Below are positions 4,302-32,866 of a DNA stretch of 33,518 nucleotides, in pieces (position 1 is the stretch's first letter; every line of letters begins with the position of its first letter). The notes beneath the pieces are model-generated. The model was not told the origin of the DNA. It did no database searches and worked only from the letters and a program-made list of their open reading frames with translations. The stretch is from a virus. A program made the translations under genes and the position numbers. Location of the stretch: the IMG/VR virus record IMGVR_UViG_3300025151_000153, positions 1 to 33,518 of that record. One strand, written 5' to 3'.

Positions 4302-5861
4302 TTAGTTGCCTTGCTTAAAGTCCCAGTTTTCTGCTTCTGCCCTATCAGATAACGCTTTTGCCTCTTTCGTGACCACTACTTCTCCGTGCTGGGCTTCCCA
4401 TGCCTTGGTCAAAAATCCGGGCCTTAAAGCTCCTGCCCTGGCAACCATAAGAGTCAGGTTATCTTTAATGGCCTTAAACTGGGCCATCCCAACATCTTGG
4501 TCAGCAGAGGATTCAGGAAACATTTGAACAAAAATTTGAAAATCTTTTTCTGTTGGCCGCCCACCATCAAATGCTTTTGTAAGTGCCTTTGCGTTAAGAT
4601 TTTTGCCGTTCTCGTATTCTATTTCTTCTGACATTCCAGCAAACCATGACTTAATGGTCCTAGGCAAAACCAAGCCCCAGGCTCCCTGTATTGCGCTAAC
4701 CTTTAAAAAGTCTTTTTGAAGCTCAGGAAGCAAGTTAATGGTCTTGAGTGCTAATTCAGTAGACTGGTCCCGCTTAGCCCGCGCCGCCCCGCTCCTAGCC
4801 TGGAACTGAGCTTCTTTAACCGTGATTTCTGCCAGCAGCTTTCTGTTGCCAAGATGCAGTTCTTTTTGCTTAGAGTCCATTTTTGCCAAGCCCGCATTTA
4901 TTACCAGCTGAGCGTTTGCGCCTTTATGTTTTCTTAAAAGACCCTGCATTTTCATGCCTGCATGTTTAAATGCTAAAGCCATGGTTGCATTGTAAGCAAC
5001 TTCTTCATTGTTAAACCTTGCCATCATGCGAGCATAGATGTTGTTTCTGTTTAAAAGAACATCTTTCTTTTTCTGCATCTCTGTTTTTTGAGCATCAATA
5101 TCTCTTTTGATTGCTCCTTCAATTATCTGCAAGGCAGAGTTTGGCATCTGCCCCCTGGACATGCCTTGAGCAAATGACCCAAGAGCAATAGCAATTGCCG
5201 CCGCCACCTTTGAGCCAGTAGAAGAAAAAGCTCTATTGGGGTCAATTTTACTATTGTTGTAGTCATCCTCTAGCTCAGCTGTGCCCTTGTCGTAATCATC
5301 CAGTTTGGCCCTGTTGATTTTCTGCATGGTTTCAAGAGCTTTGACCTGTCTGCCGTACTCTCTTTCTTGCTTATCAGCCAACTCATTCTCTTCAGAAAGC
5401 TGCCCCGCCTTTGCTTCTGCCAGTCTTTTCTCTGCTAGTCGCTGCGCATCATAAGCCGCATCCAGCTCTCGTTGACCGGCGTAAATTTGCCCCCTTGCTC
5501 TGTCCCAATCAGACATTGGCTCTTCTTGAGGGGTGGCTTCTTCGGGTGTGGTTGCAAAGGTAACGTCAGGAGTTTGCTCTTGGGGCTTTTCTTTGCTTTC
5601 GCCCATAGCAGCATATTTTTTTACAGCTTCTGTTGCAGAAATATTTTGTTCTTTTGCAATTTTTAAAATTGCCTCAGCTCTTTGTTTGTCGGCTAGCTGT
5701 TTGTCAGATCTTTTTTGAGCCGCCTCTTTTCGCTTTTGCTCTTTTTGTTTTGCCTGTCTTTCTTCTTCTTCTTTGATAAGCGCTCTTCTTAGCTGATTTT
5801 GAGGCAATTCAGCCTCTCGGCGCTGCGCCTCTATTGCGGCCATTTCTCCCACTAATGCCAT
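4302..5861 (-). CDS. Coiled-coil internal virion protein
   Basis: The 519-aa protein is highly charged. Residues about 10-90 and 120-205 are rich in Glu, Lys, Arg, Gln and Ala and should form long coiled coils. A small hydrophobic Ala/Ile patch (KVAAAIAIALGSFAQGMSRG, about 220-240) follows, then more helical sequence. The same mixture is seen in internal core proteins of short-tailed phages. It lies between the 248-aa and 1253-aa proteins, and the four probably form one ejection complex. No enzyme motif is visible. Confidence 0.7.
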   Translation of the reverse strand: MALVGEMAAIEAQRREAELPQNQLRRALIKEEEERQAKQKEQKRKEAAQKRSDKQLADKQRAEAILKIAKEQNISATEAVKKYAAMGESKEKPQEQTPDVTFATTPEEATPQEEPMSDWDRARGQIYAGQRELDAAYDAQRLAEKRLAEAKAGQLSEENELADKQEREYGRQVKALETMQKINRAKLDDYDKGTAELEDDYNNSKIDPNRAFSSTGSKVAAAIAIALGSFAQGMSRGQMPNSALQIIEGAIKRDIDAQKTEMQKKKDVLLNRNNIYARMMARFNNEEVAYNATMALAFKHAGMKMQGLLRKHKGANAQLVINAGLAKMDSKQKELHLGNRKLLAEITVKEAQFQARSGAARAKRDQSTELALKTINLLPELQKDFLKVSAIQGAWGLVLPRTIKSWFAGMSEEIEYENGKNLNAKALTKAFDGGRPTEKDFQIFVQMFPESSADQDVGMAQFKAIKDNLTLMVARAGALRPGFLTKAWEAQHGEVVVTKEAKALSDRAEAENWDFKQGN

Positions 5862-5873
5862 AACTCTTCTCCC

Positions 5874-6620
5874 TTACCCGAAAGTTCTACCCGTAGCCTT
5901 GCCAGCTCCGCCCATAACTGAAGCCCCAAGAACAACCCCCGCAGGATTGCCGCCAGTTAGGAGAAATCCACCTACTGCCCCAACCGCGCCAAGAACTCCG
6001 CTCAAAACATCTCCCCAAAAACCCTTGTTTGCCTGCGAGCGCTGATAAGCCAGCTCCTGCATACGAAGCTTTTTGTTTTCAGCCCGTGCTCTTCCTTGAA
6101 TAAGAAGGTCTCTGAGGCTGTCCTCTGCCGCTTCACGCTCAAGTTCGGTTGCCTCTGATAGCTTGGCTCCACCAATCAGTTGAGTCGCTTGTGCGGCAGT
6201 CTCGCCGCTTCTGAGCCGTGCAGCCGAACGAAGCCCTGTGCCGCTCTGAGCCAAGCCTCTTTGGCCTGACGCGAGGGTCTCAATAGACTCTCTTGTTCGT
6301 CGTCTTTCGTCTGATTCAATTTCGCCGCGAGCAATACCAGAAAGCTCTGTGGCTATTTCAAATAAGCCTTCATCTTCAAGACCAGCTTCTCGGCGCTGTC
6401 TTACGCCTTCTCTTGCATCAAGAGTTCTTTGATAAGCAGCTTGTCTGTATTCGTCTGCATCACTGTAAAAAGTTGAAGCTGTTCCGCCCTCATCCTGCTG
6501 AAAGTCCCTGGCGGTTAGCTCTGTTGCTTTTTCCTCAGCGCTTTCATAATCCTCTTCAGTTTTTTCTGATTCCGGAAGAGTATCCAAAAAGCTCTGTTCT
6601 TCTTCGGTGTATTCTGCCAT
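5874..6620 (-). CDS. Internal virion protein with Gly-rich hydrophobic C-terminus
   Basis: The 248-aa protein has an acidic N-terminus (residues 1-45), a helical Arg/Glu/Ala-rich middle, and a glycine-rich hydrophobic C-terminus (about 200-245, including SGVLGAVGAVGGFLLTGG). An acidic helical body with a glycine-zipper-like tail resembles small internal or ejection proteins of podoviruses such as the T7 gp14 class; this is resemblance in design, not a proven homology. Its ATG overlaps the stop of the 270-aa gene as TAATG, so translation is probably coupled. Confidence 0.65.
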   Translation of the reverse strand: MAEYTEEEQSFLDTLPESEKTEEDYESAEEKATELTARDFQQDEGGTASTFYSDADEYRQAAYQRTLDAREGVRQRREAGLEDEGLFEIATELSGIARGEIESDERRRTRESIETLASGQRGLAQSGTGLRSAARLRSGETAAQATQLIGGAKLSEATELEREAAEDSLRDLLIQGRARAENKKLRMQELAYQRSQANKGFWGDVLSGVLGAVGAVGGFLLTGGNPAGVVLGASVMGGAGKATGRTFG

Positions 6621-7432
6621 TACGTCTCGCCTCCCATGTCCAGGGCGCCCATATCATAAAGCGACGCTCTTCCTCGTTTTCTGTTTTGAGCCTCAACTTC
6701 TCTTCTTGAGCGAGTTTTTTCTAATTCTTTTTCTTTAATTAACTCGTCCAAAAAAGAGTTTTCATCTTCATCTTCAACCAGCTCATCAAGCAGAGACTCG
6801 GTGGCTTTTTCAGCCCTATATGCATCTCTCGCTGACTTGAACTCAGTAGCAGTCATTCCTGTGCCACGGTAGCCTTGCGGTATTTGTCCGCCCTGGGGGA
6901 AATATCCATCAGGAGAGCCCTCTGGGTCAAACACTTGTCCGCCTTGTGGAAAGGAGTCGTCAGGACCAATAGCGCCAGGGTCTCTTAACATCGAAGGAGA
7001 ATACTCTTCTCCAGGCTTTCGGTAATCGGTTAATATGGCAGCCTCTTCGCTGGCCTGAGCTTCCTTAAGAGCGTTTGCTTCAGCTTCTTTTTTTGCAGCA
7101 TCGTCAGCCTGAGTTGCAGCAAAGGCAGTTACGTCTCCAATTATTTTTGCTCCTGTTGCGATTGCAAGCGAAAGCTCAGACTGCTTTGCAATGTCTTTTT
7201 GAAGCTCAAGCCGAGTTTTTCCAAACTCAATATTATCCATAGCGCTGGCCCCTGCGCTTCTTGATGCCGCTTCTCTTCCTCGACGCGCTCCGCCTCTTTG
7301 CATTTGAGATTGAGCTACCATTTGGGCAAGCCTAGATGCTGTGTCTTCAGCAAACATCTTGCTCAATGCTTTTTGCTTCTCTTCTGCTGAAGCTTGACTT
7401 CTTAGCGCCTCTGCAACAAATGATAATGACAT
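6620..7432 (-). CDS. Helical virion protein, probable internal/core protein
   Basis: This 270-aa protein is rich in Ala, Glu, Arg and Gln. The N-terminal 130 residues look continuously helical. A Pro/Gly-rich middle (about 145-195) contains a repeat: FPQGGQVFDPEGSPDGY is followed by FPQGGQIPQGY. An acidic Glu/Asp/Leu-rich helix follows (about 205-245). Its start codon overlaps the stop of the 1113-aa tail gene and its stop overlaps the next start, so it belongs to one tightly coupled block. Function beyond a structural role is not visible. Confidence 0.65.
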   Translation of the reverse strand: MSLSFVAEALRSQASAEEKQKALSKMFAEDTASRLAQMVAQSQMQRGGARRGREAASRSAGASAMDNIEFGKTRLELQKDIAKQSELSLAIATGAKIIGDVTAFAATQADDAAKKEAEANALKEAQASEEAAILTDYRKPGEEYSPSMLRDPGAIGPDDSFPQGGQVFDPEGSPDGYFPQGGQIPQGYRGTGMTATEFKSARDAYRAEKATESLLDELVEDEDENSFLDELIKEKELEKTRSRREVEAQNRKRGRASLYDMGALDMGGET

Positions 7433-10400
7433 TATAGTGTCCTCGCTGATTCAAGCTTGAAGGATGATTCTCTGCGTCCAACTTCAAGAGAAATAGCATC
7501 AAGCTTAGCGCATTCTCCCGAGCCGGTTAAGCCAATTTTAAAACTTACTGAGCGACATTTCTGCTTGTCTAAATGCAGTCTAACAAGCATAGGGTTATCG
7601 TTTGAGCTTGTTATTGATTTTGAGTACGCGGTCCCTGATGTTAGGTCGTAATCATAAAAAGCCGAAATCGAAAGAGTATGGTCGCTAACGTAGTCTCCAA
7701 TAAGCATTCCCCGGTAAACTCTTTGAGCGTGAAGAAGCCCTGCCGCTGCAATAAAGCCAGTCTGAAGAATTACATTGTAATCTACCGGCGTTCCGCTTGA
7801 GTTGTCGTCCTGAAAAACACCCGATGCTTGCTTGTAGATTTTCCCGTCAGCTGTTGCCCTTAGAAAAACTGTTCCATCATAGACTTCGCCAACCTGCCAA
7901 GCAGAAGAGGCGTATGCTACAGTCCACAGTGCCCATTTTTGGAAGTAGTAATTATAGATTAAATAGTAATCTGAGCCCGATGCTGTGCCTGAGTTAGAAA
8001 GCAAAAATCTAACTTCGTTTGTAGAATCTACAAGCGTTGCACCGACAAGCAATCTTGTGGAGCTGTCCTCAACAGGGGCGCCGTGATAAACAACAGACAA
8101 ATCTCTTCTGACCAGATATATCCCGCGCTCAGTCTGATAAAATACTCCAATTGGAGTGTCCACATGGGCAGAGCCTCTTCTTGCTCCTTGGCCAGCTGCA
8201 AACATTCTGATGTTTGTAAACGGTCCTTCGCCCAAGGCAGTTGGACCTTCGCCTGAAACAAAGTAGGCGTTTTCTTCTGAGAATATAAGAAGGTGGTCTA
8301 GGTTTGATTCAATGCCTACAACCTTAGAGTTATCTGCCGGAAGAACAAAAGAGAACGCATCATTGAAACCTATCTCTTCACCGTCTACAATTGGCTTAGA
8401 GTAAGCAACTACGTCATCAGAGCGAACAACTGCAGCTCTTCCCCTGTGGGCAATAATATCACTGCATGAGCCCATGAAATCGTTTTCGCGAGCAATGACA
8501 GTATAGAGCTGTTCATTGGCTGTAATGTCTAAGTTTTTGCCATCGTCCTCAAATGGCTCTGCACTGTACTCTGCCGGGTAGCTTACAGACTTAGAGCCTA
8601 TGCGGTAATAGACTCCACCACCGGGCTCTGTCCTATAAAGAACTATTTTAATTCTTCCGCTTTCTGGCTTTCTTGAAAAGCTGGGAGGGTAAACAAATAT
8701 AGTTGCTTTTTTGTTTGCAGCAGAAGGGATAAAGCTTTCATGGAGAGATGGCCTAGAGCGATGCACGTTTCCGTTTGCGTCAGCCCATTCATAAATTGCC
8801 ACATATTTATAATCATCGCCAGATGAAGGTTCGGCCAATCCATCTCCAGTTGCAGCTGCTTCAACTATTTGCTGGATTGCAGGGTAAACAACATAGCCTT
8901 GCTCGAATATGCTCGATTTATCGTAACCGCTTAAAAACCCACCAGTAAAAGCAAATGAGCGTCCTGCTTCAATTGAGGCCAGTGGTCTGTCAGGGTCAAA
9001 GTCTAGTTCGCAAAGTGAGATTCCAAAAATATTATCTTTATAGTTTGCTCGTCCGCCAACCCCTGGGTCGTATTCTTCGTAACCAACAAACTTGGACGCC
9101 CCAAAGATGTATTTTGTATTGGTGTTCTTCCTGGTAATTCTTTGAACACCGTAAAGGTTTCTTCTGATTTGATACAGGTCTACCCCTCCCACGTTTTCTG
9201 TAACGGGCGCTCTTTGTATCCACTCCGAAGTAAGGCACGTTGCGCAGCTTCCGGTTGGAGTTGCTGCCATTAACTGGTCATCAGAGCTTATAATTACAAT
9301 GTTATTGTTTAGCCCTCTTGATGAGTTATCTATAAGGTTGGCAGCAGATGCAGCTTTTGACCTTCTTGTGAGGCTAATGTCGTTTACCTGAGAGACAGCT
9401 AAATAAAGCTTTCCGCCTGTCGATGGGTACCTGAAAGCATCGGACGTAATACTTGAATTCCATGCTGTTGGATTGCTTACTGTTGTTATGGCTCCACCGG
9501 TAGCCGCTCGCTCTCTTGTTACGTGAGAGATTCTATGCTGAACAACTGTGTCACCAACGGCACCGCCTCCAAGATTAGAGGTTTCGACCCATACATGAAC
9601 TGAGCCGCCATCAGTTAACGTCCCTGCTGTTCCGGAAAGAAGATGTTGATTTGTCAGAAACCCATTAGAAAGAAGATAAGCGCTAAGGTTTGCTTTAATG
9701 GTTATTATTCGCAATTCTTTGGCTGAACCGTTGTCATGTGTTGTACCAAAAACAATATTGTAATCACTTGCGCTTGTGGAGTCATTTAGGCATTTTAGAA
9801 AAATATCATTTCCAATTGCTTGGTCTTTTTTCCATGCTTCAAAGTGCGGCGTTATTTCACCTACCCCTGTACCATAAGCAATTTGAAGCGTGGTGCTTCC
9901 GAGCATTATTAGGTCCGCTGTAGATCTTTTAAAATACTTAAAAGAATAAGCGTTGGTTGTGCCAGTGTTTCTCCATGCAACCAAAATAGAACCATCGTCC
10001 TGGTCTTCATCGTCGGTATATCCGTTCACCGCTTTGTCAGCCATAAACACCGGGTAACTTGTATGAAGGTCCGTTACAATTGTCCTTGTCGCATCAACAG
10101 TGTAGCTATTGATTGTTGTGTGATTAAGACAGTTAATTGAGTCATAATAAATATTGCCGTTATCCTGCCAAAGAATAAATACGTAATCATCTATAGCGAA
10201 ACACTGGACTCTTGGGGTATCGTAAAGCTGCTGATTATTGCTTCCCGTTCCAGGGAAAGCGTATTCGGCAATCGTAACATTGTCTCGAAGAACCACTCCT
10301 GTGGTGGCATCCTCAACGCGCATTTTTACATAGTATTTTCCACCAGGAGCAGAGGGTCCAAATAAGTATTCCTGCCAAGCATACACGCGAGCAACCCGCG

Positions 10401-20985: not shown

Positions 20986-21189
20986 ATGTTTCAAATCATG
21001 TGCACCATATCGGGCGGCATCCTAGGGAGCCGTCAATCAATTCTCAAGAGCAATGGGAAGCCGATGCTTTTCAGTAGTAGGGAAGATGCGCGCGCTATGT
21101 GTAAACAATTGAACGCGCGCCGGATGAAATGCCGCCACAAGGCCTACATAATTGATACCGATAATAAACCTGCCTGGACGCAAAAATAA
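20986..21189 (+). CDS. Small basic early protein, 67 aa
   Basis: It begins one base after the previous stop. The product is basic, with MFSSREDARAMCKQLNARRM-like helical centre and a C-terminal beta segment (KAYIIDTDNKPAW). The layout, strand-strand-helix-strand, resembles small phage proteins of unknown role. No motif is recognised. Confidence 0.55.
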   Translation: MFQIMCTISGGILGSRQSILKSNGKPMLFSSREDARAMCKQLNARRMKCRHKAYIIDTDNKPAWTQK

Positions 21190-21224
21190 TCCAGGCGATA
21201 GATATTTGAAGAAAGGGATAGATA

Positions 21225-21395
21225 ATGATTGACGCAATCTTAAAAGATAACCCGGTTCTATTGGAGCGCGATTTCAAATCACGCGTTGATATGTGGGAGA
21301 AAATCAGAGACGCGGTTGAGCGTAAACACCCTGATATGGATACGGAAAAACAAGCCGCTATTATTGGCGGTATCATTGAAAGGCTGAAATCATGA
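21225..21395 (+). CDS. Small helical early protein, 56 aa
   Basis: ATG at 21225 follows GAAAGGGATAGATA, a usable ribosome-binding stretch. The product MIDAILKDNPVLLERDFKSR... is helical and charged, ending IIERLKS. It overlaps the next ATG by four bases (ATGA), which supports the reading frame. It has no recognised function. Confidence 0.6.
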   Translation: MIDAILKDNPVLLERDFKSRVDMWEKIRDAVERKHPDMDTEKQAAIIGGIIERLKS

Positions 21396-23245: not shown

Positions 23246-23623
23246 ATGAGTTTAACAAGATATGAGGATTGTTGGGTGAGTAGCGGTGAGGTCTTGTTTG
23301 AAGACAAGTGCCTTTCGTTTTCTGCGTTTAGCATTGATGACGCAAGGTTCAATCTAGATGCGGCTTTTAAAATCGTAATAGACATAGAGGAAGCGCCGGG
23401 GGAGGATTTTTGCATGGGTCCTTTTCCTGTGGATATGTGCAACAAAAAAATAAGAAAAGGCATTGATTGTGCCCAGGGCAAAAGACACAGCGAGTTCTAT
23501 AAAATTGTACTCTTGTCAGCCTATGGTCAGGAAACATGGGAAACCATAAAATCGATTATGCATCAAATAGAACTAAAGGATGGGTATTCAACCCCTGAAA
23601 GGATTAGTTGGATTAATGAATAA
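23246..23623 (+). CDS. Hypothetical early protein, 125 aa
   Basis: I use ATG 23246, one base after the preceding stop, with GGGGGC upstream; the frame can be read 7 codons further, but only by overlapping the upstream gene. The product has four to five cysteines (C9, C22, C56, C64, C74 approximately) and a C-terminal helix (ETWETIKSIMHQIELKDG). No known domain is recognised. Confidence 0.55.
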   Translation: MSLTRYEDCWVSSGEVLFEDKCLSFSAFSIDDARFNLDAAFKIVIDIEEAPGEDFCMGPFPVDMCNKKIRKGIDCAQGKRHSEFYKIVLLSAYGQETWETIKSIMHQIELKDGYSTPERISWINE

Positions 23624-23822
23624 AAAACAACTAAAATACGCTCAATCGCTTATTGGTAAACTAGTAGACACGCCAACGCACCATAATGACACGCCGTGTC
23701 GAGTAGAGTTAACAAGTGATGAATGCGGACCTATTGTCATGGTTCACTTTTCAGGGGGTGAGAGCTTTCCTCTGGGCGATGTACAGCTGGCAAAAAAACA
23801 ATATTATCTTTGCAATTATTAA
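23616..23822 (+). CDS. Small early protein, 68 aa
   Basis: ATG 23616 overlaps the end of the previous gene by 8 bases; it is chosen over an earlier in-frame start inside that gene. The product starts MNKKQLKYAQSLIGKLVDTP and continues with beta-strand-like segments (CRVELTSDECGPIVMVHFSG). A small barrel-like protein is possible. The function is unknown. Confidence 0.5.
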   Translation: MNKKQLKYAQSLIGKLVDTPTHHNDTPCRVELTSDECGPIVMVHFSGGESFPLGDVQLAKKQYYLCNY

Positions 23823-23841
23823 AACATAGGGACCTTACGCT

Positions 23842-24000
23842 ATGACTTATAAAGAATGGGACAAGCTCGTCGAGCGCGAACAATCCAAACAAAAAAAAGA
23901 AAAGTGTTGTTTCTGTGGTCATGTAGGGCCAAGGGTGTGGGAATACCCACTAACACCTAATGAGCATTATGGTTTTTGTTCAAATTGCAAGGGAGCATAA
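23842..24000 (+). CDS. 52-aa zinc-ribbon protein
   Basis: ATG at 23842 follows ATAGGGACC 8-9 bases upstream. The N-terminal half is a charged helix (KEWDKLVEREQSKQKKEK), then CCFCG and, 23 residues later, CSNCKG. Two CxxC pairs at that spacing make a zinc ribbon. Such small ribbons bind nucleic acid or protein partners. It is the last clear gene of the early cassette before the 24.0-24.26 kb structured stretch. Confidence 0.6.
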   Translation: MTYKEWDKLVEREQSKQKKEKCCFCGHVGPRVWEYPLTPNEHYGFCSNCKGA

Positions 24001-24045
24001 GAACGATAGTCCACGCCCAACTAACAAGGGGCTAGTGAGTCACAC

Positions 24046-24123
24046 ATGATGAATGGGGGTTGTTCCCCTAGTGAATATACCTTTAAGCAGGGAGAAAAAA
24101 ATAGCCAGCCGAAGACGCGATAG
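24046..24123 (+). CDS. Possible 25-aa micro-ORF
   Basis: ATG-ATG at 24046/24049 opens a short frame containing GGCSPSEYTFKQGE and ending at TAG 24121. That TAG overlaps the ribosome-binding site of the next micro-ORF, as in translationally coupled pairs. No good Shine-Dalgarno sequence precedes it. The region may instead be non-coding RNA, so confidence is low. Confidence 0.3.
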   Translation: MMNGGCSPSEYTFKQGEKNSQPKTR

Positions 24124-24222
24124 GAGAGTGATGGAGAGTTCGGTCCCGTGCCCTTGCAAGGCAGTAAGTGGAACTAAAGATGAACGGAGCCCCACTGCCC
24201 TGGTTTACCAGGGCTCTTCGGC
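24108..24222 (+). ncRNA. Structured RNA candidate
   Basis: GCCGAAGA (24108-24115) is perfectly complementary to TCTTCGGC (24215-24222) and would close a 115-nt domain. Inside are AGTTC/GAACT (24137-24141 with 24171-24175) enclosing TGCC/GGCA (24149-24152 with 24160-24163), and GCCCTGG/CCAGGGC (24197-24203 with 24208-24214) with a TTTA loop. An alternative pairing, GAGCCC (24187-24192) with GGGCTC (24211-24216), competes with the last hairpin. The domain is followed by the terminator. I match it to no known RNA class. Confidence 0.4.
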
Positions 24223-24232
24223 AAATCAATAG
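24131..24232 (+). CDS. Possible 33-aa micro-ORF before the terminator
   Basis: ATG 24131 is preceded by TAGGAG about 4-5 bases upstream, a fair ribosome-binding site, and the frame (MESSVPCPCKAVSG...) ends at TAG 24230, inside the foot of the terminator. Two cysteines (CPC) are present. The same bases form hairpins, so the frame may be accidental. Confidence 0.35.
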   Translation: MESSVPCPCKAVSGTKDERSPTALVYQGSSANQ

Positions 24233-24606: not shown

Positions 24607-26668
24607 TTGATGGCCGTCCTTTCTTGGGTCGCACTTGCTTTTGTTCAATGCGTCGTGAATCAATCAAGTCTTTAATGATTCTGTTTCGCTCGTCTCTGCT
24701 TATTGCCTGGGTTTTACGTGTCAGGTCACTGGACTTGATACCTCTCTTAGGAATGAACTGTAGAACGGTTTTAAGTTTTCTCTCATAGTCTGTATCTGCC
24801 ACGCGCTCGACAACGTCCGCGATACTCACGTTGATAAGATACTCGATAAGCTCACAGCCCCACGTGATATCGTCTAGAGATATCTTGGGCTGGCGATAAT
24901 CTAAACCAATAGCACGCACCATCGATATCTTAACCGCATGCTCATAAGCCCGTGACCACATGGGGTCCATGCCTGCTTGCCTGCTGTCTACCATTTTAGT
25001 ACGCATTCGTTTGGCATATGCTGTCAGATATTCCTGGGCGTCATCATCGATATCTAACGTATGTAGTTCGATATCTTTAACACCGCTCGATACCGTTACG
25101 CCTTGCTTGGTTCTGATATATTCTGTGACCTGCTCAAAATATTTTAAGAGGCCAGCCGGTGGACTCAGGTCATCCGGGACATTCATCTCAGGCATGTGGC
25201 CACCGATATCAAAAATGATAAGCCGGTTTAAAAATCCATCCATAACCTGTGTGGACTTCAAGCTCTCATAGAAGTGACTTGGGGTTGTGGTCCCATACAC
25301 TGATACACATGGCTGATAGATATCAATCCTTGGCCGATTGCCATCGGTATCGGCATATTGCATCCCTCGAAACATTCCCTTAGACCGTCCGAATAATTCC
25401 ATTAGAGTTGTCATAATATCTTTACGATACGTGGCAGCCCTGCCATCGGTCACAGATTTAAGAAACAATCCAAACTCATCGATGGACATCATGGTGGCTG
25501 GATTCTTTTGCACATGCTTAAGCAAGCCCTGAGCGCTCGACATGCGGCCAGTTCCTATTCGGTCACCTTGCCCAATGTCTGTAAAGATTTGGTCCGCACA
25601 ATGCATAGGATGCTCTTTGCCTGAGCCTGAGTAGCCGATACCCACTGTATAGATATTGGTTCTAAGGTTTGTTTTAGAGCGATAGTATCTACCGTAAAGC
25701 GTGCCCAGGACAGGAAGAGCAGCTGCCAATGCTAGGATGGGCTGAGGATAAATAGCCGTGCTATTGATAAAATGGCAGACAGCGCCAAGGGCACCGGGCA
25801 CATTTAAAAACTTACTAGGAAATACCCGCTCATCCAGGTCCGTGTCTGGTACGTCAAACTCAGGGATAGCCACTTCCTCGATAGCAACCGGAATTGCTTC
25901 ACTCGGATTATTCTCAATATGTGACTTAAGAATACTTGCAACCGTTGCGTCCACTTCTGCTTGCATAAGCGGATTGTCGTTTTGATTGTTCCATTCGTTG
26001 GCCTGCTTAACCACAGACAGGATATCATCACCCTTAGCAACGTATTGTCCAACCATAGAGGCCAGTGCATTGTTGCGTCCACCTTCTGCCACAGGGCTTC
26101 CGTCGTGTGGCTCTCTTACTTGCTCGGTATCAAAGATGTATTCCCCAGAGGAGTCAGTCCCATTATAAGAATAGATGGTGCTAAGGTTTTCTTGAGGCAA
26201 TGGAGGAAGCTCATCTGCCATCGTAATCATGCAGCCGCTATCAATCTTCCACTGATACAGTTTGCCGCTAGGGTGTACACTGGGCGGCGCCACTACATAA
26301 CCGCCACGTCCCCTTATATCTACCTTGCCCTTTTCATTTACAGAGTTAGGCACCACGCCATTAATCCCATAATAGAAATGAGCGCCACGGGCAGTCTTAA
26401 CTTTCCATGGTGTGGGCGGTAGGTTGTCACCTATCCAGCGAATTGTATCGTTGGTATCAGCGTCCACCACAATACAGTTGACACCAGTCACAACACCCAC
26501 GTTTGCATCTGGCCACTTTGTCCACCAGCTTTCTATCTCTTCCTCTGTTGGCTCTCTCTCCTGAAATTCCTTCCAAGCAATTAAAGGTTTTTTCCCTCTT
26601 GGTTTTAACGGTATCACGCGCAATCCGTTGTCCCACATTGAACGGGCAGCTTCCCCCAATTCTGACAT
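24584..26668 (-). CDS. Primase-polymerase fused to helicase-like domain
   Basis: ATG 26668 has GGAGGGTGAT upstream and is preferred over a TTG five codons earlier that lies in that sequence. The 694-aa product starts with a primase-polymerase (Prim-Pol) domain: the conserved Asp pair at D69/D71 in VVDAD, H97 in GAHFYYG, and D117 before GRGGYVVAPPS. GGRNNALASMVGQ (about 196-208) is a primase C-terminal-type motif. The C-terminal half resembles the DUF3987 helicase-like domain, with GYSGSGKE (345-352) as Walker A and MSIDEFG (394-400) as Walker B. The usual Ser/Thr after the Walker Lys is Glu. It should prime and drive phage DNA replication. Confidence 0.85.
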   Translation of the reverse strand: MSELGEAARSMWDNGLRVIPLKPRGKKPLIAWKEFQEREPTEEEIESWWTKWPDANVGVVTGVNCIVVDADTNDTIRWIGDNLPPTPWKVKTARGAHFYYGINGVVPNSVNEKGKVDIRGRGGYVVAPPSVHPSGKLYQWKIDSGCMITMADELPPLPQENLSTIYSYNGTDSSGEYIFDTEQVREPHDGSPVAEGGRNNALASMVGQYVAKGDDILSVVKQANEWNNQNDNPLMQAEVDATVASILKSHIENNPSEAIPVAIEEVAIPEFDVPDTDLDERVFPSKFLNVPGALGAVCHFINSTAIYPQPILALAAALPVLGTLYGRYYRSKTNLRTNIYTVGIGYSGSGKEHPMHCADQIFTDIGQGDRIGTGRMSSAQGLLKHVQKNPATMMSIDEFGLFLKSVTDGRAATYRKDIMTTLMELFGRSKGMFRGMQYADTDGNRPRIDIYQPCVSVYGTTTPSHFYESLKSTQVMDGFLNRLIIFDIGGHMPEMNVPDDLSPPAGLLKYFEQVTEYIRTKQGVTVSSGVKDIELHTLDIDDDAQEYLTAYAKRMRTKMVDSRQAGMDPMWSRAYEHAVKISMVRAIGLDYRQPKISLDDITWGCELIEYLINVSIADVVERVADTDYERKLKTVLQFIPKRGIKSSDLTRKTQAISRDERNRIIKDLIDSRRIEQKQVRPKKGRPSIVYNRTK

Positions 26669-27904: not shown

Positions 27905-28585
27905 ATGAAATTTACAAACACAAAAAATGCAAACGCAAATGCTGGCATCAAGTTCCTAGGCTACGGCCTAGCCGGTGCCGGTAAGACCTATGCAATCCGT
28001 ACATGTGATGAGCCTGCTCTAATTATCAGTGCAGAGTCTGGCCTATTGTCATTATCGGATGTGTCGGTTGATGCTGTTACTATTGAGAGCTTTGATGATG
28101 TGGACAAGGTGTATGACTACCTTGCCAAGTCAGAAGAGAGTCAGAAGTACAAGTGGATTTGCATCGACTCATTATCAGAGGTTGCTGAGACCCTGTTGGT
28201 ATCTGAGCTTGCAAGAAACAAGGATGGACGTAAGGCATACATGGAAGTGTCTGCTAGAACCCAGGCTATGGTTCGCAAGTTTAGGGACCTACCACGCAAC
28301 ATCTATATGACGTGCAAGATGGAGCGCCAGAAAGATGAGTTTAGCGGGGGTATCCTGTGCTACCCAAGCCTGCCCGGTTCAAAGCTGGGCCAGCAGATTC
28401 CTTACCTGTTTGATATCGTGGCAGCGATGCGAGTGGAGAAGGATGCCGAGGGTGTGCTCAAGCGCATGCTGCAAACAAGTAGCGATGCAAAGTATTATGC
28501 AAAAGATAGAAGCGGCAAGTTGTCGCAATTTGAACAACCAAACCTAGCAGCAATTCGCGCTAAGGTTTTAGGATTAGGAGAGTGA
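27905..28585 (+). CDS. Sak4-like RecA-fold recombinase ATPase
   Basis: The 226-aa protein is a single RecA-type ATPase domain with Walker A GLAGAGKT (21-28) and Walker B WICIDSLSE (84-92). Size, the opening (IKFLGYGLAGAGKT) and the following single-strand-binding gene match Sak4-type phage single-strand annealing proteins (AAA_24). It would promote phage recombination with the neighbouring nuclease and helicase. It begins 20 bases after the possible micro-ORF, with GGAAGGTGAAAG as ribosome-binding site. Confidence 0.85.
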   Translation: MKFTNTKNANANAGIKFLGYGLAGAGKTYAIRTCDEPALIISAESGLLSLSDVSVDAVTIESFDDVDKVYDYLAKSEESQKYKWICIDSLSEVAETLLVSELARNKDGRKAYMEVSARTQAMVRKFRDLPRNIYMTCKMERQKDEFSGGILCYPSLPGSKLGQQIPYLFDIVAAMRVEKDAEGVLKRMLQTSSDAKYYAKDRSGKLSQFEQPNLAAIRAKVLGLGE

Positions 28586-28586
28586 A

Positions 28587-29042
28587 ATGGCTGGATACAG
28601 TTTTGACAGCAACGAAGTAAGTGATGAGGTTGCCCTTATTCCAAAGGGCACTGAGGTAAAGGCAGTGGTCATCGAGTCCGACATTCAGGACCGTGACTGG
28701 GGCGTACGTATGCCACTGGTACTTGAGGTTACCGAGGGCAAATATCAAGGCGCTCGAATCTTTGATGGATTCAATCTTGAGCACACCAACCCAAAAGTTG
28801 GAGCCATTGGCCAGAAACAGCTTAAGCGTTTGTGTGTGGCTGTGGGCGTGCCACGGTTCAAGAACACCGATGAGCTACACGGTAAACCGTTTATGCTTAC
28901 CGTTGGAGTACAGGAAGCTCAGGGCGGATATGATGCCAAGAATCAGATTGGCAAAATGAAACCATGTGAAGCTCCTGCTGGCTTTGAGGGCGAGCCAAAG
29001 GCTCAAGAGGTTGGCAAAGAAAAGGCACCTTGGGAGTCATAA
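28587..29042 (+). CDS. DUF669-type single-strand-binding protein candidate
   Basis: This 151-aa protein starts one base after the recombinase stop. Its central section (VLEVTEGKYQGARIFDGFNLEHTN) and the GQKQLKRLCVAVGV helix are characteristic of the DUF669 family that accompanies Sak4-like recombinases, for which a single-strand-binding function has been proposed. The C-terminus ends in PWES, like the partner-binding tail of single-strand-binding proteins, though less acidic. Confidence 0.75.
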   Translation: MAGYSFDSNEVSDEVALIPKGTEVKAVVIESDIQDRDWGVRMPLVLEVTEGKYQGARIFDGFNLEHTNPKVGAIGQKQLKRLCVAVGVPRFKNTDELHGKPFMLTVGVQEAQGGYDAKNQIGKMKPCEAPAGFEGEPKAQEVGKEKAPWES

Positions 29043-29879
29043 GTGGCTAGCTTTCAATATGATTCTAATAGCGACATTGTCCGTCTAATATATGAGCAGG
29101 GCGAAAAGACACAGGGCGATTCACGTCGCCCACATCTTGGATGCTCTGCCATAGGTCGCGAATGCTCAAGAGAAATTTGGTACAGCTTTAGATGGGCTGG
29201 CCAAGTCATGTGGTCAGGCAGAATGCTGAGACTTTTTGACCGAGGTCAAAGAGAAGAGATTGTTCTGGTTGATGCGCTCAAGAGCATAGGGTGTGAGGTG
29301 TGGGAGGAGGACCCGCGGACGGGTAAGCAGTTTAGAGTTGAGTTTGAAAGCGGACACATAAAAGGTTCTGCTGACGGGGTTTGCCGGGGATTACCCGGCG
29401 ACCCTAAGACCCCACACCTGCTAGAGTTTAAGACCCATAACGATAAGTCGTTCAAGCATCTGGTAACGAACGGGGTGGCAGAATCAAAGCCACAGCATTT
29501 GGTTCAAATGTTTCTGTACATGAAAGGGCTTAAGCTGCCCAAGGCATTGTATGTGGCCGTGAATAAAAATAACGATGAGTTATACACTGAGGTGATTGAG
29601 TACAATGCAAGGCTTGCGGATGAATATCTTGAGAAGGCAAAAGACATTGTTGCTTCTGAGGTTGAACCCGAAAAGATAAGCCACAGACCAGACTGGTACA
29701 AGTGCAAGTTTTGCAGCTTTAAGGGCCAGTGTCATTTCGGTGTGCCACTAAGCATGAACTGTAGGACCTGCAACAAGGTAGAGGTTCATGATGAGGGCGA
29801 ATGGTTTTGCAGTCTATACGGGGATAAGCTCCCGTTGGATAAACAAAAAAAAGGGTGTGAAAGATGGCAGTCAGTTTAA
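29043..29879 (+). CDS. Cas4/RecB-like PD-(D/E)xK nuclease with Fe-S cysteines
   Basis: Translation starts at GTG 29043, with GGGAG upstream, immediately after the preceding stop. Nuclease residues are D111 in KGSADGV, E128 and K130 in LLEFKT, and Q151/Q155 in QHLVQMFLYM. C41 or C34 with C221-x2-C224-x5-C230 matches the four-cysteine iron-sulfur site of Cas4, AddB and related exonucleases. After it lies an additional group, C240-x2-C243, C256 and C272, that may hold zinc. It is probably the exonuclease that makes single strands for the Sak4-like protein. There are no Cas genes, so it is not a CRISPR component here. Confidence 0.85.
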   Translation: MASFQYDSNSDIVRLIYEQGEKTQGDSRRPHLGCSAIGRECSREIWYSFRWAGQVMWSGRMLRLFDRGQREEIVLVDALKSIGCEVWEEDPRTGKQFRVEFESGHIKGSADGVCRGLPGDPKTPHLLEFKTHNDKSFKHLVTNGVAESKPQHLVQMFLYMKGLKLPKALYVAVNKNNDELYTEVIEYNARLADEYLEKAKDIVASEVEPEKISHRPDWYKCKFCSFKGQCHFGVPLSMNCRTCNKVEVHDEGEWFCSLYGDKLPLDKQKKGCERWQSV

Positions 29880-31456
29880 GAGGTTATCAGCAAGAGTCGG
29901 TAGATGCTCTCACGAATTACCTACACAGAAAATCAGGGAACCCGTTGTTGGTGCTGCCAACTGGTAGCGGCAAAAGCCACTGCCAAGCGGGGTTCATTCA
30001 GCAAACATTGAAGCGGTATCCCAATACCAGAATACTCTGTCTAACTCACGTTAAGGAGCTTATTGAGCAGAATGTTGAGAAGGCGCGGCTCTATATGCCG
30101 GATGCCGACATAGGCATTTACTCGGCTGGCCTGGGCAAGAGAGAGCTGGGTAAGCCACTAACGTTTGCTGGCATACAATCGATTTATAATAAGGAGTTCG
30201 AAGCTCCACACCTAGTCATGATTGATGAGTGTCACTTGGTGCCTAAGAAGGGCGATGGCATGTACCTCAAATTGCTTAACAGGCTTATTGAGGACAATCC
30301 CAAGTTAAAGGTCATCGGCATGACGGCCACACCCTTTCGTCTGCGCGGGGGAGTTCTTACTGGGGGAAAAGGTAAGATGTTTGATTCGGTGGTTTATGAC
30401 CTACCGATTCAAAGGTTGATAGACGAGGGGGTGTTGGCCACTGTGGTATCTGCTGAGGCAGGGGCCACCATCGACACGTCAGAAGTAAAAGTGACCGCCG
30501 GGGAATACAACCTAAAGCAGCTGGGGGTAGCAGCTGACCAGGACCACGTTACCGCGGCGGCGGTCACAGACTTACTTAAGCATGGCAAAGGGAGAAAGTC
30601 ATGGCTTATCTTCTGCGTATCCGTGAGCCATGCAGAGCATGTGAGAGACGCCCTAAGAAAGAAGGGCGTGTCAGTTGAGTGCATCACAGGGGAGACCCCA
30701 AAGGACAAGCGCAAGGAGATTCTCGCGGCTTACAAGGCAGGTAAGATTAAAGCTCTTACCAACTGTAATGTATTGACCACAGGGTTTGATGCTCCTGAGA
30801 CTGACTTGATTGCATTGCTTAGGCCTACCGTGTCACCAGGGCTATATGTACAAATGGTAGGCAGGGGTATGCGGCCAGCCAAAGGAAAGGACAATTGCTT
30901 GGTCCTGGATTATGGCGGCAACATTTCAAGGCATGGCCCGGTTGATAACGTGAACATGCCTGAGCCACAGGGCGATGGAAAAGGCGAGGCTCCTGTTAAG
31001 TTTTGCCCACAATGCTTAGCCGAGTGCCACTTGGCGACCAAGGTGTGTGAGCAATGCGGACACGAGTTTGAGATGGAGGAAAAGGCACTGGGCAAAAGAG
31101 CCAGTCAGTTATCTATCCTTTCCTCTCAGAAAGAATTAATAGAATATGATGTAAGCCGGGTTAAGTATGTCAGGCACCAAAGCCGGGGGAGCGGAAAAGT
31201 ATCTATGCGCGTAGATTACTATGACGGTCCACTTAAGGCTTGTAGTGAATGGATATGCTTAGAGCATAGAGGATTCTCTAAGCACAAGGCTGAATCATGG
31301 TGGCTCAGAAGAGACAAGTACATCGATGATGTTCATGGCGTGCCACCAACAGTTGAGGAAGCTATCAAGCTAACACCTAGCCTTCTGGAGCCCGTAAAGG
31401 TGTACACCAAGAAGGAAGGCAAGTACGAAAGAATCGTGAGGTATGATTTTGAATAG
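29864..31456 (+). CDS. SF2 DNA helicase
   Basis: The 530-aa protein has the superfamily 2 set: PTGSGKS (32-38), DECH (121-124), TATP (154-157) and QMVGRGMR (330-337). A zinc-ribbon-like group, CPQC (381-384) and CEQC (395-398), follows the helicase core, then a C-terminal domain with basic and aromatic residues. The layout resembles phage and restriction-type DEAD/DEAH helicases of RAD3/RecG-unrelated type, probably acting in replication restart or recombination. It overlaps the nuclease gene by 16 bases. Confidence 0.9.
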   Translation: MAVSLRGYQQESVDALTNYLHRKSGNPLLVLPTGSGKSHCQAGFIQQTLKRYPNTRILCLTHVKELIEQNVEKARLYMPDADIGIYSAGLGKRELGKPLTFAGIQSIYNKEFEAPHLVMIDECHLVPKKGDGMYLKLLNRLIEDNPKLKVIGMTATPFRLRGGVLTGGKGKMFDSVVYDLPIQRLIDEGVLATVVSAEAGATIDTSEVKVTAGEYNLKQLGVAADQDHVTAAAVTDLLKHGKGRKSWLIFCVSVSHAEHVRDALRKKGVSVECITGETPKDKRKEILAAYKAGKIKALTNCNVLTTGFDAPETDLIALLRPTVSPGLYVQMVGRGMRPAKGKDNCLVLDYGGNISRHGPVDNVNMPEPQGDGKGEAPVKFCPQCLAECHLATKVCEQCGHEFEMEEKALGKRASQLSILSSQKELIEYDVSRVKYVRHQSRGSGKVSMRVDYYDGPLKACSEWICLEHRGFSKHKAESWWLRRDKYIDDVHGVPPTVEEAIKLTPSLLEPVKVYTKKEGKYERIVRYDFE

Positions 31457-31560: not shown

Positions 31561-31758
31561 ATGACTAAAGTTAAGACAAGTTATTGTCAGGGGTGCATTC
31601 GAACGGAAGTAACGCTTAAGCTTACAATGGCAAATGGGCGACCATACTGGTTGTGCAAAAAATGCCTGAACCCTCTGCCGAGGGAATCTTACAAAAAAAA
31701 TGATGAGTCTGAGTCCAGAAGAGCCTGGGGAGATTCTAAGTATGAAAACAAAGGGTGA
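31561..31758 (+). CDS. 65-aa zinc-ribbon protein
   Basis: ATG 31561 with GGGGGGC upstream is preferred over an earlier in-frame start that would translate the hairpin region. The product has CQGC (about residues 9-12) and CKKC (about 33-36), a two-CxxC zinc ribbon separated by a beta-hairpin-like stretch, then a charged tail ending in ENKG. It precedes the PP-loop gene by 4 bases and may act with it. Confidence 0.6.
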   Translation: MTKVKTSYCQGCIRTEVTLKLTMANGRPYWLCKKCLNPLPRESYKKNDESESRRAWGDSKYENKG

Positions 31759-31760
31759 AC
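31742..31760 (+). repeat. 19-bp direct repeat, copy 1
   Basis: ATGAAAACAAAGGGTGAAC is present exactly at 31742-31760 and again at 32538-32556. Each copy encodes the C-terminal residues NKG of the gene before it, its stop, and the ribosome-binding site of the gene after it. The two copies thus bracket the PP-loop gene. A similar ribosome-binding section (GTAGGGTGAACAAATG) precedes the 306-aa gene. Confidence 0.8.
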
Positions 31761-31762
31761 CA

Positions 31763-32554
31763 ATGCAGCACATAGTTATGTACAGCGGAGGGCTAGGTAG
31801 CTGGGCTACCGCAAAAATTGTTATTGAAAGGCATGGGACAGAAAACACAACTCTTCTCTTTGCCGACACGCTCATAGAAGATGAGGACCTTTATCGCTTT
31901 CTGGACGAAGGGGCCAAGTATCTCGGCGTAGAGTTTACTCATATTGCCGAAGGCAGAACGCCGTGGGAGGTATTTTACGATACGAGGTTTCTCGGCAATA
32001 GCCGAGTAGGCAACTGTTCAAAGATTCTCAAAAGAGAATTTATTCATAAGTGGATAAAGAAAAGATACAAGCCAGACGAATGCATTATGTATCTAGGCAT
32101 AGATGCGACAGAAGAGCAGAGATTAATAAGGGCGCAAAAATGGTGGGACCCTTACATTGTGGAGTCACCACTAACAGAGCCGCCTTTTTATGATTATGCA
32201 ACCCTGAAAAAATGGCTAGAGGATGCAGGCATCGAGCTGCCATCTCTTTATAAGCTTGGGTTTGCGCATAACAACTGCGGCGGCTTTTGTGTCCGTTCTG
32301 GCCAAGGGCAGTTTGCTCACCTGCTTAAAGTTTTTCCAGAAAGATATGCTTACCATGAAAAGAAGGAGGAGGAGATAAGAGAATACCTTGATGCCAATGT
32401 GGCAATACTCAGGGACAGGAGAGGAGGGAAGTCTAAGCCAATGACACTTAAAGCTTTTAGGACAAGGCTTTCTGAGAAAGATAAAAATTTAAATCTATTA
32501 GAATGGGGCGGGTGCGATTGCTTTGCCCCGGTCAATAATGAAAACAAAGGGTGA
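31763..32554 (+). CDS. PP-loop ATP pyrophosphatase (PAPS-reductase-like)
   Basis: I use ATG 31763, with GGGTGA about 6 bases upstream; an in-frame ATG at 31742 would overlap the previous gene. The 263-aa protein belongs to the adenine-nucleotide alpha-hydrolase superfamily: the PP-loop is SGGLGS (8-13), with Gly where many members have Asp. C85 (NCSKILKRE), LGID (111-114), HNNCGGFC (169-176) and CDC (251-253) could form a redox or metal site. Relatives include PAPS reductase, tRNA-thiolation and DNA-phosphorothioation enzymes. Which reaction it performs is not visible. Confidence 0.8.
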   Translation: MQHIVMYSGGLGSWATAKIVIERHGTENTTLLFADTLIEDEDLYRFLDEGAKYLGVEFTHIAEGRTPWEVFYDTRFLGNSRVGNCSKILKREFIHKWIKKRYKPDECIMYLGIDATEEQRLIRAQKWWDPYIVESPLTEPPFYDYATLKKWLEDAGIELPSLYKLGFAHNNCGGFCVRSGQGQFAHLLKVFPERYAYHEKKEEEIREYLDANVAILRDRRGGKSKPMTLKAFRTRLSEKDKNLNLLEWGGCDCFAPVNNENKG

Positions 32555-32556
32555 AC
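32538..32556 (+). repeat. 19-bp direct repeat, copy 2
   Basis: This is the second exact copy, spanning the end of the PP-loop gene and the ribosome-binding site of the membrane-protein gene. The distance of 796 bp between copies means homologous recombination would delete exactly one gene and keep both neighbours correctly joined. Confidence 0.8.
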
Positions 32557-32560
32557 TATT

Positions 32561-32866
32561 ATGAGAGATATTGGTGAAAGAAGATTTCAATTTGAAACAC
32601 AAGAGAAAGAAAGTGATGGCATGTGGTGGATACAGGGTGCATTCCTTGTTGCCATTGTTTGCTTGGTCGCTGCTTATTTTCTTACACAAAGAAGCTACAA
32701 GCTTGAATACGCCATAGTTGGCAAGCCAGCCCTGGGTGATTTAGTGCAAAGAGATATGGAGCTGGAAAAGCAAAAGCTCGAAGATCACTATCGCTACAAC
32801 TCCTATGAGACATACAGCGATGAGGACCGAGAAGGTTTAACTGCAATTATTTTGGGAGGTGAGTAA
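32561..32866 (+). CDS. Single-pass membrane protein
   Basis: The 101-aa protein has a charged N-terminus (about 20 residues), one hydrophobic segment at 21-42 (MWWIQGAFLVAIVCLVAAYF), and a charged helical C-terminal part. Because the peptidase at the right edge is near, a spanin or holin-like role is possible, but the protein is on the other strand and lacks a clear coiled coil of the spanin type. Function is left open. Its stop overlaps the next start as TAATG. Confidence 0.6.
   Translation: MRDIGERRFQFETQEKESDGMWWIQGAFLVAIVCLVAAYFLTQRSYKLEYAIVGKPALGDLVQRDMELEKQKLEDHYRYNSYETYSDEDREGLTAIILGGE

Follow-up and report, generated by a model that had tools for sequence, protein, structure and literature searches.

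Presence and absence of a single PP-loop gene between exact 19-bp copies of a gene joint in a group of related phages

The subject of this analysis is a virus record of 33,518 bases, IMG/VR IMGVR_UViG_3300025151_000153 (hereafter the window, meaning the whole stretch analysed), and within it a gene for a PP-loop protein that lies between two exact copies of a 19-bp direct repeat, ATGAAAACAAAGGGTGAAC, at 31742-31760 and 32538-32556. Our results suggest that this accessory gene was gained once in the lineage and has been lost precisely by recombination between the two 19-bp copies, a reading to which we give a probability of about 0.77. Filled and empty alleles with exact joints both occur in natural relatives, including a filled and an empty phage that are near-isogenic, and the gene is conserved where it is present.

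On the plus strand of the window the PP-loop gene (31763-32554, 263 amino acids, PAPS_reduct-like, phrog_424) stands between a gene for a small Cys-rich protein of 65 amino acids (31561-31758), which has no matches in Pfam, PHROG or NCBIfam, and a gene for a protein of 101 amino acids with one hydrophobic stretch (32561-32866). Both repeat copies, also on the plus strand, are read in the same register, each supplying the gene before it with its final four codons and stop; the upstream protein ends in ...SKYENKG* (its last residues being ...YENKG*) and the PP-loop protein in ...VNNENKG*. The ribosome-binding site AAAGGGTGA is common to both copies and lies 5' of the next start codons at 31763 and 32561, and the stops of the upstream gene and the PP-loop gene each overlap the AAAGGGTGA that serves the next gene. 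The left copy (31742-31760) combines the end of the upstream gene with the ribosome-binding site of the PP-loop gene, and the right copy (32538-32556) combines the end of the PP-loop gene with that of the downstream gene. At 31742 the left copy also has an ATG that shares the reading frame of the PP-loop gene (...MKTKGEPMQHIV), which makes the start ambiguous; because homologues begin M(K/Q)HIV, we prefer the start at 31763. No further copies of ATGAAAACAAAGGGTGAAC were found in the window with up to three mismatches allowed. No exact direct repeat of the window is longer than this pair, the next ones being of 16, 16 and 15 bp, and when 22 gene joints of the window were tested, 21 of them besides this one, no other gene had matching ends that share more than 8 bp. 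Dinucleotide shuffles gave an expectation of 0.02 chance matches to the 19-mer, with two matches in 0 of 100, and a composition-based estimate gave 0.0023 exact 19-bp pairs expected in the window. Between the copies lies a 777-bp insert (31761-32537, plus strand, from the BLAST joints), and the insert with one repeat copy, 796 bp, is the exact stretch absent from empty relatives.

Relatives were sought in viral_contigs with the PP-loop protein, the helicase encoded upstream, both neighbours and the 19-mer, and nine IMG/VR records of the same lineage beyond the window (G001-G004 and G006-G010) were found. The filled allele is present with both joints visible, and hence two 19-mer copies each, in the window, G002 and G009, and with the left joint alone visible in G006, the contig of which stops inside the PP-loop gene, and in G010. 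Four records (G001, G004, G007 and G008) are empty, with one exact copy of the 19-mer and the neighbours joined exactly, such that the downstream gene directly follows the upstream gene; G003 stops short of the joint and is uninformative on the allele. Both neighbouring genes are intact in filled and empty forms alike. Relatives of the upstream gene occur at nine loci in viral_contigs, and an exact scan for the 19-mer there found nine stretches, all nine at this locus and either filled by the PP-loop gene or empty. A preliminary description of the stretch had proposed that exact 19-bp repeats frame the PP-loop gene and that each contains a gene end together with the following gene's ribosome-binding site, both of which are borne out by the coordinates, the reading registers and the position of AAAGGGTGA. 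It had further proposed that recombination between the repeats would insert or remove exactly one gene, and had suggested looking in related phages for the repeat with no gene; the exact joints, the intact neighbours and the four empty records with one copy each agree with this. The pattern it had named as contrary, in which all relatives are filled and have unrelated flanks, is not what the relatives show.

The closest pair, the empty G001 and the filled G002, are 99.95% identical over 3,892 bp upstream and 99.70% identical over 21,395 bp downstream, and at the locus they differ by the 777 bp plus one repeat copy. In the first 9.6 kb downstream there are zero base differences besides a run of N. 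The scaffold G010 carries the upstream gene and the PP-loop gene, then 10 N, the end of the upstream gene, one 19-mer copy and the downstream gene, so that the part after the 10 N is an empty junction. The simplest reading is that both alleles were present in the sample from which G010 comes.

In a tree of the helicase flank (1,320 columns; ten rows, nine with an allele label; midpoint root), the empty G004 and G007 lie outside and the empty G008 next, and two changes of state are needed. We infer one gain after G008 split off and one loss in G001, with an order of branching that rests on distances because the root is the midpoint. In a distant contig, L031, homologues of both neighbours are adjacent, without the PP-loop gene and without the 19-mer, and in the more distant L173-L176, found via the exonuclease gene, the helicase is present and all three locus genes are absent. 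The nearest viral PP-loop relatives outside the lineage, in L064 and L065, are 71-72% identical; of these two only L064 has a related upstream gene, and it is not adjacent to the PP-loop gene. As for a donor, no relative of the protein was found with strict patterns in genome_contigs, which holds one genome per species for 84,980 bacterial and archaeal species. Between the window and G002 the PP-loop gene is 97.3% identical, the upstream flank 96.0% and the downstream flank 89.3%, and between the window and G006 the PP-loop gene is 92.2% and the upstream flank 93.0% identical. The divergence of the gene tracks that of its upstream flank, as expected for vertical inheritance after one gain. Nonsynonymous (dN) and synonymous (dS) divergence of the gene are 0.010 and 0.096 against G002 (dN/dS about 0.10) and, over 330 bases, 0.015 and 0.40 against G006 (dN/dS about 0.04). 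The PP-loop gene is under purifying selection where it is present and is therefore used rather than junk.

We propose that the PP-loop gene entered the lineage once, at the joint of two adjacent early genes, and that this would have left a filled site with two copies of the joint, each comprising a gene end, a stop and the next ribosome-binding site. The inserted gene is in frame, with the left copy providing its ribosome-binding site and the right copy its final four codons and stop. The copies would then recombine, by single-strand annealing or by replication slippage, and this would delete 796 bp, taking exactly one gene and one copy and restoring the ancestral joint. The gene is accordingly polymorphic in nature. 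Deletions between short direct repeats occur in T7 and in E. coli; a literature text search on T7 direct-repeat deletions found nothing useful. The candidate mediators are encoded just upstream on the plus strand: a Sak4-like single-strand annealing protein (27905-28585; phrog_124 1.9e-51; Pfam AAA_24), an SSB-like/DUF669 protein (28587-29042; phrog_2300, phrog_6015; PF05037) and a Cas4-domain/PD-(D/E)XK exonuclease (29043-29879; phrog_1990 8.3e-98; PF12705). They are followed by the superfamily-2 DNA helicase that served as the flank for the tree (29864-31456; phrog_16 1.5e-99; ResIII, Helicase_C). Because of these genes, annealing between the repeats would be the likeliest route of loss, and the set may act on the 19-mer. 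A study of the Sak4 of phage HK620 describes an annealase that is stimulated by its SSB and tolerates oligonucleotides diverged by up to 20% (PMC5928155).

Several points weigh against loss by recombination between the copies. The length of 19 bp is short for recombinases, and Sak4 activity is ascribed here by homology only. No donor that would account for the second 19-mer copy was found. G001 and G002 are different assemblies and were compared as contigs, and a deletion in G001 cannot be told from exchange with an unseen empty phage. There are three single-nucleotide polymorphisms (SNPs) in the 210 bp by the joint and two in the 3,892 bp farther upstream, an excess that hints at recombination, or at a mixture of strains where a contig ends. 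The junction in G010 is a scaffold join that could be an assembly artefact, and it is weaker evidence than reads. Other gain and loss sites of these phages have short joint matches alone, and for this reason homology of 19 bp is not required for gene turnover here.

The rival that survives best, though we think it rather doubtful, is allele exchange, in which ordinary homologous recombination through long shared flanks keeps both forms in circulation and the repeats are now idle. Near-identical flanks of many kb offer ample homology for it. The SNPs near the joint are shuffled among G001, G002, G010 and the window (within the last 210 bp upstream of the joint, 3 bases distinguish G001 from the filled G002 and 1 base from the filled G010), and a further cluster of G001/G002 SNPs lies about 9.7-10.1 kb downstream. 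However, allele exchange needs a co-circulating empty donor of the same lineage, and the known empty phages G008, G007 and G004 are 9-14% different in the 210 bp before the joint, which excludes them as direct donors to G001.

An insertion with target duplication of 19 bp, by a mobile element or casual end-joining, concerns the gain and is compatible with repeat-mediated loss. Empty sites and outgroups have one copy and the filled site two, as such a duplication would leave them, and the native tail of the family ends near GGCxCF, with the ENKG tail coming from the repeat. Against this, the insert has no transposase, its single open reading frame (ORF) being that of the PP-loop protein, nor does any terminal inverted repeat longer than 4 bp lie within 40 bp of its ends. 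In addition, a homologue in the Cluster J mycobacteriophages (see below) has different, imperfect boundary repeats, and most relatives of the gene lack such repeats, any boundary match being shorter than 13 bp at 76 of 81 homologous loci. We consider target duplication unlikely.

The preliminary description went on to interpret the locus as a gene-cassette mechanism for swapping accessory genes. A precise removable insert is supported, and direct repeats with exact empty and filled forms are the trace expected of a site-specific system; the swapping of different cargo is not supported, and no recombinase is attached. A dedicated cassette system, with a recombinase acting on the 19-mer to insert and exchange different genes, is very improbable on several grounds. 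No other gene was found between two 19-mer copies in viral_contigs, although the description had suggested looking for one, and the 19-mer has one isolated single match in genome_contigs. No recombinase was found in the insert or the tested neighbours, in a phage the functions of which are only partly annotated. The 19-mer is also absent at the other variable sites of these phages, and we rejected it as a general cassette site of the phage. Finally, it is hardly credible that two ribosome-binding sites came to match by chance or functional convergence, or that the repeat is an assembly artefact: both copies do hold a ribosome-binding site under selection, but the other window joints share at most 8 bp, the expected number of exact 19-bp pairs is 0.0023, and the recurrence of both alleles in several independent contigs refutes these explanations.

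Five other sites of gene gain or loss in the phage group have different joints, where the matches are only a few bp long. One of them, site A (near window 21225), is an insertion point of variable content that is joined at the start codon: at one ribosome-binding site there is no extra gene in G003 and G006, one small gene in the window and two in G001, and the same next gene follows in all forms (window 21189-21395; G001 25740-26420; G003 9150-9260). BLAST overlaps of 14 and 19 bp at this site were rejected as exact repeats, as they reflect loose extension over the likeness of ribosome-binding sites. At site B the gene 23246-23623 is absent in G003 and G006, at site D, near 26632, a gene is absent in G001, and at site E the gene at G004 4585-5322 is absent in G008. 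Sites A, B, D and E share start-codon joints with short matches; site C, near 23803-24229, is the exception, with no clean start-codon joint. The gene 3' of the downstream gene (window 32866; G004 about 9508) is a different gene in G004, and the joint of this replacement is exactly GGAGGTGAGT(A/G)ATG, an overlap of stop, ribosome-binding site and start. G001 and G002 run on for about 4.2 kb between the window end (33518) and window base 475, and the window is therefore probably an incomplete, permuted genome.

As an extra gene between genes that are adjacent in relatives, the PP-loop gene resembles a moron, the definition of which includes its own promoter and terminator. A simple scan of the plus strand of the insert (31761-32537), to which other promoter types are invisible, found no sigma-70-like promoter or terminator-like match, and we therefore call the gene only 'moron-like'.

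The PP-loop protein scores 23.0 bits against Pfam PAPS_reduct PF01507 (cut-off 22.5). Its predicted model has a mean predicted local distance difference test (pLDDT) value of 89.9, and the best Foldseek matches of the model are PAPS reductases, with template modelling scores (TM-scores) of about 0.46-0.55, suggesting a moderate resemblance to these enzymes. CGGxC and GGCxC are invariant or near-invariant in homologues, which end shortly after GGCxCF; in the window the residues after GGCDCF are APVN and next NENKG, and the right repeat copy encodes ENKG with the stop. This tail, residues 251-263, has pLDDT below 50 and is predicted to be disordered. The redox motif of CysH is a C-terminal ECG(I/L)H, which is absent from the 263 amino acids of the protein, and the best characterised or solved matches are SspD in PADLOC (1.8e-14) and PptA in the PDB (21fy_C, 4.6e-26). 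Sulfur transfer to nucleic acid would be a better guess at its function than sulfate assimilation, judging from these sequence matches; a literature search on PptA and phosphorothioation found nothing relevant. Because the CysH motif is absent and SspD and PptA are closer, the annotation of such virome genes as cysH or PAPS reductase auxiliary metabolic genes may be misleading.

Repeat-flanked gene segments are already known, and the present locus adds to them a natural pair that is almost isogenic and has exact 19-bp joints. In the accessible text of Pope et al. (2011, PMC3029335), genes 43-46 of the mycobacteriophage LRRHood form a segment flanked by 29-bp direct repeats, which are in single copy in relatives without the segment and lie at the extreme 3' end of a gene. 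The same arrangement is found here, with the gene flanked by repeats in carriers, one copy in non-carriers and a 3' gene end in the repeat. The LRRHood segment differs in its size, 1.35 kb and four genes as opposed to one gene, and that text describes no near-isogenic empty and filled pair for it; the authors favour acquisition from a second phage. For gene 68 of Island3, compared with Brujita, both intramolecular deletion and intermolecular gain are considered there; its repeat is about 50 bp, whereas that of the window is 19 bp, exact, with the stop and ribosome-binding site inside. Pope et al. also discuss deletion and acquisition by general recombination, tied to short conserved boundary sequences. 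Like these, the repeat in the window is a short module-edge sequence that may let general recombination exchange or delete modules; boundary sequences, as described in that text, are shared between phages at exchange points, while the repeat in the window also lies on both sides of one gene.

The unrelated Cluster J mycobacteriophages carry a homologous PP-loop gene, 47% identical and annotated PAPS-reductase-like (Baka gp169, Squint gp156, Optimus gp160), that is precisely present or absent between phages, with overlaps of about 24 bp in Baka versus Schatzie and 28 bp in Squint versus LittleE. As in the window, the boundary repeat comprises stop, spacer, ribosome-binding site and start and is in one copy in empty phages; unlike that of the window, it is imperfect, about 23-28 bp, and unrelated in sequence to the 19-mer. 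The accessible text of the Cluster J paper (PMC3706429) has no match to PAPS or phosphosulfate and does not discuss the joints under those words. Among clean insertions and deletions (indels) of 120-3000 bp in Optimus, LittleE and Schatzie, 15 of 36 have a joint overlap of at least 13 bp, compared with 3 of 400 simulated random deletions in five genome pairs (Fisher p 1.7e-15, which is overstated because the 36 come from three pairwise comparisons, include the PP-loop site and count some events twice). Ten of the 15 repeat-bearing indels lie in annotated right-arm regions, where by hand comparison nine touch or fall within a gene joint and one is at 18 bp. In a joint-to-joint comparison of 69 gene pairs in LittleE, 65 share at most 8 bp, and the longest match, of 20 bp, is found at a gene that Optimus lacks. 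Because Cluster J indels show it widely, the joint-repeat pattern is special neither to the PP-loop gene nor to this phage.

Boundary repeats of at least 16 bp were found at 4 of 81 homologous PP-loop genes (L064 17 bp, L055 23 bp, L113 16 bp, L088 16 bp) and at 4 of 346 other ORFs of the same loci (Fisher p = 0.046; p = 0.014 without two controls that are tandem paralogues in L007, an exclusion made after seeing the result). The 81 leave out L061 and L062, of the window lineage, and loci with incomplete genes or short flanks; L051, tested apart from them, shares 6 bp and has no boundary repeat. A PP-loop-specific cassette is weakly supported by these counts. In L064 (72% identity) the PP-loop gene and the gene before it, a member of the 6-pyruvoyl tetrahydropterin synthase family, both have their stops inside copies of the exact 17-bp repeat (2436-2452 and 3264-3280) that flanks the PP-loop gene. 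In L055, the Microcystis phage MaeS, the exact 23-bp repeat (1123-1145 and 2193-2215) lies on either side of the PP-loop gene, with the downstream copy after a terminator-like hairpin. In L007 a PP-loop gene is followed (5809-6746) by three small paralogues in tandem, the starts and ends of which are repeated.

For the accessory and auxiliary metabolic genes of wild phages, turnover is for the most part deduced from joints that are old and blurred, and a filled and empty pair that is near-identical apart from the gene gives exact joints and recent turnover. Repeat-mediated gene loss can be tested directly at this locus, and from the Cluster J comparison joint repeats seem frequent enough to be a search signal for mobile single genes. 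We tentatively suggest, as a possibility that at present we hold less likely than its opposite, that duplicated gene joints are the general mark, and perhaps the driver, of the process by which phages gain and lose genes one at a time. If so, the PP-loop family (phrog_424) would be one recurrent cargo of duplicated joints, and a gene inserted with a repeated joint of stop and ribosome-binding site would be a reversible unit for which no dedicated recombinase is needed.
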